This document shows positions 3,636 to 25,764 of a stretch of 32,150 nt of DNA, in pieces. Each line of letters opens with the position of its first letter. The stretch's first letter is position 1. Position numbers and translations under genes: made by a program. The notes under the pieces were generated by a model. It searched no databases, had not been told where the DNA came from, and saw only the letters and a list, made by a program, of their open reading frames with translations. This stretch comes from Aquificota bacterium (GTDB lineage Bacteria; Thermosulfidibacterota; Thermosulfidibacteria; Thermosulfidibacterales; B14-G1), in assembly GCA_015486105.1 (NCBI GenBank), contig WFSI01000082.1, positions 1 to 32,150 on the forward strand, read 5' to 3'.

Positions 3636-5682
<2,047 letters not shown>

Positions 5683-13940: not shown

Positions 13941-14474
13941 TCACTCTCCTCTATCCGAAGGGATTCCCCGGGGGGTACCTACTTTCCTCGGTCTACCCCG
14001 TCTCATTCTTTCTCTGATTATCATCCTCATGATCTCCCGATTGAATCGCTCTGTGAACAAGATATACTTAGCCTCCTCTTGGGGAGAGAGCTCTTTCTCC
14101 AAGGCCCGAAGTTCTTTCACCCTTAGCCTGGCCAGTTCCACACCTACGTTGAGGTACCTCAAAGACATGGACCTTACATCTCCTTTCACAGCCTTACCCC
14201 TTGAGGCATTTATGAGTTCCTCCCGGAGGCTCCGCCTCTCCTGAACCAGTTTTCTGCGTTGGAGATCAAACCTCCTAAGTATAATAAAAAGTCTCTGAGC
14301 CCTGTCCTGGGATAGATTCAACACGTCCATGAGCTTCCAATTCCTTATGGTCTCCACCTTCTCCATAGTTCGGGCCTCCTCTTTCTTAGAGACCCCTCCC
14401 AAGCTTAAAACGGGCGTACTTAGGAAACACAAAAAAACCACAAGAGAAAAACCCAGTTTATAGACATCCTTCAT
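13941..14474 (-). CDS. Putative periplasmic Spy/CpxP/ZraP-like helical protein
   Basis: Signal peptide (LGFSLVVFLCFLSTPVLSLG), repeated LTxxQ-like motifs (LSQDRAQRLF, LSPQEEAKYILF), Arg-rich helical body; follows the anti-sigma gene with a 4-nt overlap. Confidence 0.65.
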   Translation of the reverse strand: MKDVYKLGFSLVVFLCFLSTPVLSLGGVSKKEEARTMEKVETIRNWKLMDVLNLSQDRAQRLFIILRRFDLQRRKLVQERRSLREELINASRGKAVKGDVRSMSLRYLNVGVELARLRVKELRALEKELSPQEEAKYILFTERFNREIMRMIIRERMRRGRPRKVGTPRGIPSDRGE

Positions 14475-15082
14475 GCTACACCCCCTATCTGGTTTATGGT
14501 TTCCCGACCTTGCTTACTTGTCCCCTTCAAAAGAGCATCTAATTCAGCAGGTGAAAGGCTACCTGCCGATTCCAACGCATCAGCCCAAGGGGTAATTGTA
14601 GAAAAGGGCTCTCCATGGGGAAGAGAAAGGGCCATGGCCCTGTTTAACTCCACCATATCTTTCCTATCCAACTGGGAAAGAATTTCGGCTTCCCCACCTG
14701 GAGGAATAATATCCCACGAAGTTATCCTCCATTTAATATTTGAATGGCCAATAAAAAGGAAAAGAAAACAGAAGGCCAAAAGGAGACCCCCTATACAGGC
14801 CCCCCACCCCCAAGGAAGGCTCAATGGCGAAGAAGGGGAAGACAAGGAAAGAGATGGGACCACCTGCTTCGCTTCCTCCAAGAGCCTCTCCTCCATGGCA
14901 AGAAAGAAGGCCTCGCCATCTCCAGCTATTTCTCCTTCTTGCAATGCCTGGAATAGACGCTTCATGAAAGAGAGTCTTTCTCTGCACTCTCTGCACTTTA
15001 ATAGATGGAAAAAGAGGGGAAGCCTTGCCAGGGCAAATCCGGCCTCGTCATACCATCTCTCAACGAACTCTTCACAGGTCAC
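14471..15082 (-). CDS. Putative membrane-anchored zinc-finger anti-sigma factor
   Basis: N-terminal HLLKCRECRERL (HxxxCxxC), single TM (ACIGGLLLAFCFLFLFIGH), directly downstream of and overlapping an ECF sigma gene. Confidence 0.75.
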   Translation of the reverse strand: MTCEEFVERWYDEAGFALARLPLFFHLLKCRECRERLSFMKRLFQALQEGEIAGDGEAFFLAMEERLLEEAKQVVPSLSLSSPSSPLSLPWGWGACIGGLLLAFCFLFLFIGHSNIKWRITSWDIIPPGGEAEILSQLDRKDMVELNRAMALSLPHGEPFSTITPWADALESAGSLSPAELDALLKGTSKQGRETINQIGGVA

Positions 15083-15614
15083 GACCTTCCCCCAGAATCC
15101 ATCTCAATCTTTTCACTCCCACCCAAAAAAGACTCCTGGCGGTTGCCGGCTGACACCCCATGGCCAGAGCCACCTCTTTGAAGGAGAGTTCACCATAAAC
15201 CCTGAGAACAATAGCCATCCTCTGACGAGGTGGAAGGTGACTAAGGGCCCAACGGATACGTTCCTTCTCCTGAAGGGTAGACAAAATCTGAAAGGCCTCA
15301 CTCTCTCGGGGAACCCCATCCCTCTCAAAGTCCAGGGCATAAGCTTCACCTTTTTTACGGCGCAGAGAGTCTTTGACCAGGTTAGATGTGATCTGGAGAA
15401 GCCAAGGTCTAAAGCTGGAGGGATTTTTAAGACAAGCCAATCCCTTCAAAGCCCTTAAAAAGGCCTCTTGGGTGATGTCCCTGGCACTTTCTCTATCACC
15501 CATCATATTAAAAGCCGCGTTATATACCATCCTTTCGTACCTCCTCACCAGATCTGAGAAAGCCTGGGCCGATCCTTCCAAAAACATAGCTATGAGGTCC
15601 TCATCTTTTTTCAT
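15072..15614 (-). CDS. ECF-type RNA polymerase sigma factor (sigma-70 family)
   Basis: sigma2 (FSDLVRRYERMVYNAAFNMMGDRESARDITQEAFLRAL) and sigma4 (ALSHLPPRQRMAIVLRVYGELSFKEVALAMGCQPATARSLFWVGVKRLR). Confidence 0.92.
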   Translation of the reverse strand: MKKDEDLIAMFLEGSAQAFSDLVRRYERMVYNAAFNMMGDRESARDITQEAFLRALKGLACLKNPSSFRPWLLQITSNLVKDSLRRKKGEAYALDFERDGVPRESEAFQILSTLQEKERIRWALSHLPPRQRMAIVLRVYGELSFKEVALAMGCQPATARSLFWVGVKRLRWILGEGRDL

Positions 15615-15736: not shown

Positions 15737-17050
15737 TTACGAATCCTTCCTAAAAAGAAAGAGTTTACGCCTAATAGTATTTCTGTGAACACCCAGGATC
15801 CTTGATGCCCTAATCTGATTACCCTGGGTCAAACCCAAGACCTCTTCCAAAAGTACCTTCTCTACCTGCTCAAGAACCTTCCCATAAATATCCATCTCCC
15901 CCTCTTTGAGCATCCGTTGAACCTCCTCCCTCAGGTAGAGAATGAAAGGGGGCTCCTCCCTATTCTCCCGAATCACCAAAGGGAGAAGATCTAAAGAGAC
16001 AAGCTGCCCCCTGCATAAGGACACCAGCCTCTCTACCACCTCTTTCAGCTCTTTCACATTGCCCGGCCATCTATACCTCATAAGGGCCTCCATGGCTTGA
16101 CTGGTGAAACCCTTTACCCTGCTCCTCGTTGCCTCAGCCGCCCTTTGAAGAAAGTAGTTAGCCAACAAGGGAACATCTTCTACCCTCTCCCTCAAGGGAG
16201 GAATCTCCAAGGTAAGGGTCTGGAGGCGCAAAAACAGATCCTCATTAAACACCCCCTCCACCACCAGACGGGGTAAGTCCTTGCTGGTTGTTGCCATGAT
16301 CCTGGCCTCCAATTGAAAGATCCTGCCCCCCAAACCAATATACTCCCCCTGTTCCAAGACCGTTAACAGTTTATCCTGAACCTCTGGTACCAGATCCTCC
16401 ACATGCTGGATCACCAAGGTGCCACCCCGGGCATTTTCCAGCTTCCCCCCTCTGCCAAAAAGTTCTGTCTCTACCCGCGGAGCTGGAAGTCTAGCAGGAG
16501 TGAAAAAAACCAAGGGCCCATCCCCCCGGCCACTGTGAATGTGCATATACTGGGCAGCAGCTCCCTTTCCACTCCCTTTTTCCCCAATGATAAGGGCAGA
16601 AAGATCAGTGGCGGCAAGGCGCCCCATGCGCTTCAGCACCTCCTCCATGGCAGGAGACTGGGTCATGAACTCATGAGATCTATCCTCTCCCTCTTCCCTC
16701 CTGAGGAGAGCCTCTCCCTCCTTCACCACACCCCGTAGCCTCGATAGATCAAAGGGCTTAGGAAGATAATCCATAGCCCCACGTTTCATAGCCTCAATCA
16801 CAGTTTCTGGCCCTCCCCGCCCCGTCATTAACACCACCAAGGGGGGATCCTCCATGGCAAGGACCTCTTCTAAAAATTGAAGACCATATCCATCGGGAAG
16901 ATAGATATCCAGAAAAACCAACTGGACATCCCTCAGCAGCCCCCTACCATCCCTCAAGGTAGGAGCCTCTAAGACCTCGTAATCCCGGCCCAAGGCCTTA
17001 TTGATTATCCACTGGACGCTGGGATCATCGTCTATGACCAGAATCTTCAT
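15737..17050 (-). CDS. NtrC-family response regulator (REC + AAA+ + Fis HTH) with atypical AAA+ domain
   Basis: REC with FLDIYLPDG; Walker A GEKGSGKG; PPLRERVEDVPLLANYFL; WPGNVKEL; HTH GNQIRASRILGVHRNTIRRKL. GAFTGA loop and canonical Walker B absent. Confidence 0.92.
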   Translation of the reverse strand: MKILVIDDDPSVQWIINKALGRDYEVLEAPTLRDGRGLLRDVQLVFLDIYLPDGYGLQFLEEVLAMEDPPLVVLMTGRGGPETVIEAMKRGAMDYLPKPFDLSRLRGVVKEGEALLRREEGEDRSHEFMTQSPAMEEVLKRMGRLAATDLSALIIGEKGSGKGAAAQYMHIHSGRGDGPLVFFTPARLPAPRVETELFGRGGKLENARGGTLVIQHVEDLVPEVQDKLLTVLEQGEYIGLGGRIFQLEARIMATTSKDLPRLVVEGVFNEDLFLRLQTLTLEIPPLRERVEDVPLLANYFLQRAAEATRSRVKGFTSQAMEALMRYRWPGNVKELKEVVERLVSLCRGQLVSLDLLPLVIRENREEPPFILYLREEVQRMLKEGEMDIYGKVLEQVEKVLLEEVLGLTQGNQIRASRILGVHRNTIRRKLFLFRKDS

Positions 17051-18107
17051 GCCCCTGCCTCAAAGGTAAAAGCACTTCAAAGACCGTCCAATCTCCCTCC
17101 CTCCCGTACTGGAGATGGCCCTGGTGACACTTCACTATCTTATAAGCAATGGACAAACCCAGACCCGTACCCTTTACCTTAGAGGTGACAAAGGGAGAAA
17201 ACAGACTATCCTCCACATCAGGGGGCACACCACCTCCCGTATCCTCTACCCTCACCAAAAGGGCATCTGCCTGGGGAAGGAGCCTCCTATCCCAGGAAAG
17301 AGCCGTTTTTACCCTCAGGGTTCCACCTTGGGGCATGGCTTCCAATGCGTTCTTCACCAAGTTGGAAAAGACCTGATAAAGCCTAAAAGGATCCGCTCCC
17401 AAAGGAGGCAAACTGGGATCATAGAGGCGCTCCACCTGAACATCTTGCATCTGGATCTGATGCTTGTATGCATTGAGTACCTCCTCCAGCACCCTGTGGA
17501 TATTGGTCTTCACCATCTCTAAACTCAAGGGTCGGGAAAAATCCAGGGTCTCCTCCACCAACTGTTGAAGCCTCACCACTTCCCTCTTTATAAACCTCAT
17601 ATACTCCAAAGGATCTCCCTCTTCCTCTTCCATAAGCTGAACGGCCCCCTTCAAACCCGTAAGGGGACCCTTAAGCTGATGAAAGGCCATACCTAATGCC
17701 TCCTCTACCAAGGAGATGGCCAATCCCTCCTTATCTTTCTCCTCCAACACCTTGATACGGGTGACATCTCTGAAAAGGATACCCACTACCCTTTTCCCTT
17801 CCACCTCCACTGGAAAAAAGCTGGCCATGAGATACCTATTGTCACCTCTGAGGGTGAGAGGATACCCTCGTAGCACCCTGCCCTCCCTCAAAACCCGGGC
17901 CCAAGCCTGGAGAAATCCCTGGTCATCCACCACAGTGGATAGGGGAACCCCCCGTAGATGGCCTAAAGACAAGACTTCCCGGGCAGCAGGGTTGGCGTAC
18001 TCCACTCCTCCCTCATCGTCCACCAAGAGATAGGGATCCCCCAATCCCTCTAACAGTTCCCTAAAAGGAATCTCATTCATGTTCATAATTGATGGCATGA
18101 AACGCAA
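17025..18107 (-). CDS. PAS-domain sensor histidine kinase (NtrB-like), partner of the adjacent regulator
   Basis: PAS, H-box AFHQLKGPLTGLKGAVQLM, N-box QVFSNLVKNALEAMPQGG, G-boxes VEDTGGGVPP, GTGLGLSIAYKIV; overlaps regulator by 26 nt. Confidence 0.93.
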   Translation of the reverse strand: MRFMPSIMNMNEIPFRELLEGLGDPYLLVDDEGGVEYANPAAREVLSLGHLRGVPLSTVVDDQGFLQAWARVLREGRVLRGYPLTLRGDNRYLMASFFPVEVEGKRVVGILFRDVTRIKVLEEKDKEGLAISLVEEALGMAFHQLKGPLTGLKGAVQLMEEEEGDPLEYMRFIKREVVRLQQLVEETLDFSRPLSLEMVKTNIHRVLEEVLNAYKHQIQMQDVQVERLYDPSLPPLGADPFRLYQVFSNLVKNALEAMPQGGTLRVKTALSWDRRLLPQADALLVRVEDTGGGVPPDVEDSLFSPFVTSKVKGTGLGLSIAYKIVKCHQGHLQYGREGDWTVFEVLLPLRQGHEDSGHRR

Positions 18108-18126: not shown

Positions 18127-18393
18127 CTATTGAAAGAAGAGAATAAAGCCCAAGATGATGAGTAGAAGGGCCCCTCCTCTTCTCGCCAAGTCCAAAGGTA
18201 TCCATAGAGCCAAATGCTCTCCCACCAAAACGGCTAAAAGGGTGGTAGCAGTTAAGGCCAAAGACGCCCCAACAAAAACGGCCAGGGGCGATCTACCCGA
18301 AGAGGCAAACCCCAATACCGCCAACTGGGTCTTGTCCCCCAGCTCAGCCAAAAACACAGCCACGAACACAGCCACTAGGCTCTTAATGTTCAT
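18127..18393 (-). CDS. Single-domain GDT1/TMEM165 (UPF0016) family membrane protein
   Basis: About 88 aa with AVFLAELGDKTQLAVLGFAS (ExGDKTQ motif) and three hydrophobic segments; RBS GGGAGGTAGAGG before ATG 18393. Confidence 0.88.
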   Translation of the reverse strand: MNIKSLVAVFVAVFLAELGDKTQLAVLGFASSGRSPLAVFVGASLALTATTLLAVLVGEHLALWIPLDLARRGGALLLIILGFILFFQ

Positions 18394-18499
18394 CACCCTC
18401 TACCTCCCAGGACTTTTCCTCTTACCTACCATAAAAAGCGGAGCACATCACCGGTGCCCATGGTATTTCACTGTTCCTTTGTGGTATATATATCTTACT

Positions 18500-25669: not shown

Positions 25670-25764
25670 TGGCGGAAGTGGGTGGGAATCGAACCCACCA
25701 GCCCCCTTTTGGGAGGCTCACCGGATTTGAAGTCCGGGGGCAGCACCAGCCACCACCCACTTCC
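25670..25764 (-). tRNA. selC: tRNA-Sec (UCA), selenocysteine tRNA, CCA encoded
   Basis: Reverse complement GGAAGTGGGTGGTGGCTGGTGCTGCCCCCGGACTTCAAATCCGGTGAGCCTCCCAAAAGGGGGCTGGTGGGTTCGATTCCCACCCACTTCCGCCA: 95 nt, 8-bp acceptor, long D stem, long variable arm, anticodon TCA, terminal GCCA. Confidence 0.97.

Follow-up and report, generated by a model that had tools for sequence, protein, structure and literature searches.

The window (the whole 32,150-nucleotide stretch analysed, contig C82 of a 1.89 Mb assembly of 155 contigs with 94% completeness and 5% contamination) encodes a 437-residue response regulator that is probably a former sigma-54 activator now serving, with the PAS histidine kinase encoded by the overlapping gene, as a plain sigma-54-independent response regulator. 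Its AAA+ domain lacks a working L1 motif, which places the protein in the known functional class of GAFTGA-less NtrC-family regulators. It lies outside the named families tested, and its decay is unusually thorough. The original prediction of a sigma-54-independent and probably ATPase-dead protein is the best-supported reading: the L1 loop, the Walker B acids, the switch and sensor-1 asparagines and the first arginine finger are absent from all four proteins of the orthologous group.

Pfam recognized Sigma54_activat (2.3e-30), AAA_lid_14, Response_reg and HTH_8 domains in the regulator, and thus the receiver, AAA+ and Fis-type helix-turn-helix (HTH) order of group I bEBPs. The receiver residues D7/D8, D48, T76 and K98 are present and invariant across the orthologues. 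The receiver aspartate and the Fis HTH have been retained as predicted. The regulator departs from group I in GAFTGA, the Walker B Asp-Glu pair, the switch and sensor-1 asparagines and the possession of both arginine fingers.

Table 1 Features of the regulator and of the genes adjoining it, in window coordinates.
Feature	Position	Strand	Basis
Response regulator, REC + pseudo-AAA+ + lid + Fis-type HTH	15737..17050	-	ORF and Pfam
Receiver domain, residues 3-109	16724..17044	-	Pfam
AAA+ core, residues 129-286	16193..16666	-	Pfam, model, fold match
Walker A GEKGSGKG (GEEGVGKT in orthologues), residues 156-163	16562..16585	-	Alignments
Switch-Asn position, Thr184 (Ala in orthologues)	16499..16501	-	Paralogue alignment
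L1 deletion junction ETELFG-RGGK, residues 194-203	16442..16471	-	Alignments
Degenerate Walker B VIQHV (canonical FLDEI), residues 213-217	16400..16414	-	Alignments
Sensor-1 TTS (canonical ATN), residues 254-256	16283..16291	-	Paralogue alignment
First arginine finger replaced by Asn269 (FNED)	16244..16246	-	Alignments
AAA+ lid, residues 287-366; sensor-2 position Lys333	15953..16192	-	Pfam and paralogue alignment
Fis-type HTH, residues 393-430	15761..15874	-	Pfam; conserved in orthologues
PAS histidine kinase, likely partner; may in fact start at an internal Met	17025..18107	-	Pfam, synteny
GDT1-family antiporter (divalent cation/proton) of 89 aa, heading the conserved run	18127..18396	-	Synteny

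The motifs of the regulator (switch Asn, sensors and arginine fingers named as in PMC7175178) were compared with those of NtrC1/NtrC4 and of the genome's own canonical paralogue. The AAA+ string quoted in the original prediction, ETELFGRGGKLENARGGTLVIQHVEDL, corresponds to residues 194-220 (nucleotides 16391-16471). The alignments agreed with that prediction in that the GAFTGA-bearing L1 loop is gone in frame (13 alignment columns including GAFTGA are absent at the junction), LDEI is replaced by IQHV and FRED reads FNED, the last being common to the three orthologues. The Walker B Asp-Glu pair has become Gln215-His216, and the motif is degenerate in the orthologues also, which have IQQ rather than IQH. 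Walker A was likewise retained as GxxxxGK; its lysine is followed by Gly in the window protein but by Thr in the orthologues. More has decayed than had been recognized, the losses extending to the switch and sensor-1 asparagines and the first arginine finger. The sensor-1 Asn is Ser256, a change common to the orthologues, and the sensor-2 Arg is Lys333 (R or K in the orthologues). The second arginine finger is kept as Arg275.

Our sample of the phylum was nine genomes, five of which belong to the family of the window genome. The regulator was found in four of these five (the window copy plus three orthologues of 74-75% identity); the fifth assembly, in which it was missing, is 73% complete. 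The remaining families of the nine-genome sample yielded no copy. Public records matching the four proteins carry conflicting phylum names, Aquificota versus Thermodesulfobacteriota. When the orthologues were checked for an intact GAFTGA or LDEI, all three were found to share the losses: each of the four copies (the window, L012, L013 and L014) has the L1 deletion, IQH or IQQ, FNED and an altered sensor-1, which therefore are not sequence errors. Every domain is under purifying selection, the AAA+ domain included, for which dN/dS was 0.04-0.18 where synonymous sites were unsaturated. A decaying pseudogene or an assembly error might be argued from the long branch of the orthogroup (1.91), but the losses shared by four genomes, dN/dS values well under 1, the intact frame and the conserved synteny leave that explanation with a negligible probability, and we consider it ruled out.

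An AlphaFold model built from an alignment of 30 sequences had a mean pLDDT of 87.7 and a pTM of 0.59, the latter making the arrangement of the domains uncertain. The AAA+ domain of the model superposed on that of FleQ with bound ATPgammaS (TM 0.91 by target, rmsd 1.3 Å), and the top full-length structural matches were NtrC1 and Brucella NtrX. Hence, the AAA+ fold is predicted to be intact despite the lost motor residues. Because the regulator keeps the Walker A lysine, Arg275 and a large part of the lid, it could still bind nucleotide and conceivably hydrolyse it weakly. It might then resemble R. capsulatus NtrC in being a sigma-70 activator for which nucleotide binding rather than hydrolysis is essential and drives assembly; for the R. 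capsulatus protein PMC10274813 cites a need for ATP binding but not for hydrolysis. The invariance of Lys162 (in the four orthologous proteins and all 30 aligned regulators) and the FleQ superposition speak for this reading, whereas the loss of both Walker B acids and of the switch and sensor-1 asparagines, exceeding that in NtrX, which keeps LDEV and FRED, makes it rather unlikely. It is, however, a sub-case of a sigma-54-independent response regulator, and the two overlap.

The kinase and regulator genes overlap by 26 bp and the GDT1-kinase-regulator gene order is conserved in four genomes, which supports the predicted pairing of the regulator with the adjacent PAS kinase. In all four genomes tyrS, a DUF4416 gene and rlmB precede this run on the same strand, and the run is led by a lone 89-residue GDT1 half-protein. 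All four kinases have HQLKGPL as their H-box, with Gln at the H+1 position where Glu or Asp is usual, and judging from this residue the kinase output could be altered. The genes downstream of the regulator vary. In the window these are an ECF sigma factor, an anti-sigma-like membrane protein and a small secreted protein (13941-15614, minus strand). Only a 36-residue anti-sigma-like stretch and the secreted protein were found in G004 (L041 7323-7974), and a multi-subunit glutamate synthase-like cluster directly follows the orthologous regulator of G002 (L042 7533-12850). Elsewhere in the window ARAGORN predicted a tRNA-SeC gene (25670-25764, minus strand).

As a sigma-54-independent response regulator, the protein would be phosphorylated on Asp48 by the overlapping kinase, and phosphorylation would shift its dimer/oligomer state. 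The AAA+ domain would be an inert assembly scaffold, possibly stabilized by nucleotide through Lys162, and the Fis-type HTH would bind operators at sigma-70-type promoters to give activation or repression without ATP hydrolysis. Its targets might, speculatively, include its own GDT1-kinase-regulator operon. In PspF the Walker B Glu to Gln change E108Q alone reduces ATPase activity to <1% (PMC4132715); that mutant still engages sigma-54 via its GAFTGA loop, the loop that is absent from the window regulator. Dependence on sigma-70 is inferred by elimination and by analogy to the GAFTGA-defective TyrR, DhaR and HupR, which are reported to be sigma-70 dependent (PMC3162934).

Searches for -24/-12 sites in the window gave 6 versus 5.4 expected, and thus no excess, which speaks for sigma-54 independence. 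Upstream of the GDT1-kinase-regulator operon no operator common to three or more genomes was detected; the intergenic sequences aligned poorly. Upstream of GDT1 in L043 (about 4509-4655) there is a perfect 9-bp inverted repeat, CACCCTTTG-N7-CAAAGGGTG, and L042 has a weaker CTTTG/CAAAG pair; a repeat of this type was not seen in the window. The L043 repeat is a possible, weak candidate for an operator.

The window genome has retained rpoN, the product of which has a region-I-like N terminus and an RpoN box, and one canonical GAFTGA activator encoded near it on contig C62. The coexistence of rpoN and a canonical activator allows the regulator to be viewed as an inactive partner that forms mixed hexamers with the C62 activator and thereby tunes or blocks sigma-54 activation. 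The fold and second arginine finger are kept, and PspF hexamers made of linked subunits tolerate altered subunits (PMC4132715). However, the regulator has its own kinase and HTH, which are conserved together, and shares no more than some 31% identity with the canonical paralogue, to which it is not linked. We therefore regard mixed hexamers as improbable.

Canonical activators are in a minority in four genomes of the family, being one of six activator-like proteins in each of G000, G002 and G003 and two of five in G004. GAFTGA is absent from 18 of the 23 such proteins of these four genomes, as against at most 11 of 73 domains in two comparator genomes (a GAFTGA-type match was found in at least 62, a lower bound). 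The Fisher test gave p = 4e-8, but orthologues are not independent and hence the orthogroup counts (two canonical, five not) are the fairer measure. The contrast with the other families of the phylum, where 8 of 13 are canonical, was weaker (p = 0.03). The five orthogroups lacking GAFTGA differ in Walker B: it is intact in the NtrX-like orthogroup B, reads DQ in C and has lost both acids in D (the window regulator), E and F. In sister family f3 two relatives of orthogroup B still bear GSFAGA or GAFGGA.

The orthogroups without the loop were recovered as supported clades in the tree, with orthogroup E beside GAFTGA-bearing relatives (91/82). Parsimony gave five changes, although the long branches make any count of L1-loop losses tentative. 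AU tests rejected none of the groupings tried, neither a single clade of all loop-less proteins (p = 0.13) nor the pairing of the window group with group B, C or E. The RpoN DNA-binding domains of the family scored 114-123 bits (G000:C62, G002:C11, G003:C173 and G004:C24) versus 179-196 bits in sister families, and the lower scores suggest relaxed or shifted constraint on sigma-54.

Tentatively, and at somewhat less than an even chance, the family may have dismantled its sigma-54 network yet kept the regulators, leaving sigma-54 with essentially one nearby canonical activator as several orthogroups separately became sigma-54-independent pseudo-ATPases. GAFTGA-less precedents (TyrR, HupR, NtrX and the R. 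capsulatus and Caulobacter NtrC proteins) are already known, and the greater interest lies in such an uncoupling of activators from sigma-54 across a lineage. The label "sigma-54-dependent activator", which automatic annotation is apt to give such proteins, would misname most of those counted here. Within the phylum the proteins grade from canonical ones, via those with a mutated loop (GSFAGA, GAFGGA) and those that have lost the loop but kept the other motifs, to the pseudo-ATPases, and with this natural series the purpose of the AAA+ domain once sigma-54 remodelling is lost could be tested.

The best sequence matches of the regulator among solved structures are the Aquifex proteins NtrC1 and NtrC4 (E = 1e-59 to 1e-62), canonical sigma-54 activators that have the same domain order and fold but, unlike the regulator, carry GAFTGA, the Walker B DE, the sensor-1 Asn and both arginine fingers. 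NtrX of Brucella abortus (PDB 5m7n/5m7o/5m7p), which ranks with the top matches both in sequence and in full-length structure, is also a REC-AAA+-HTH response regulator without GAFTGA, but keeps a Walker B LDEV and FRED whereas the window regulator has neither. The regulator is not the NtrX orthologue of its genome, the NtrX-like protein being encoded on contig C61 (5m7n E = 1e-113). Assignment to a named NCBIfam family also failed, in that the regulator fell short of every cut-off tested: 221 versus 600 bits for the NtrX equivalog, 309.6 versus 558.6 for NtrC, 139.6 versus 576 for the TyrR equivalog and 166.7 versus 551 for the DhaR equivalog. Unlike the window regulator, TyrR and DhaR are not known to have a receiver domain. 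Together with HupR, which is a response regulator like the window protein and is likened to it by its published description, they combine a defective sigma-54 contact motif, descent from activators and action at sigma-70 promoters (PMC3162934). The predicted analogy to TyrR and HupR is limited to function, the TyrR family cut-off having been missed. The NtrC proteins of R. capsulatus and Caulobacter resemble the regulator in deletion of the GAFTGA L1 loop, in the receiver-AAA+-HTH layout and in having a partner kinase, and are reported to act at sigma-70 promoters (PMC10274813). Caulobacter NtrC requires the Lys of Walker A and the Asp of Walker B (PMC10274813), whereas the window regulator has dispensed with both Walker B acids.
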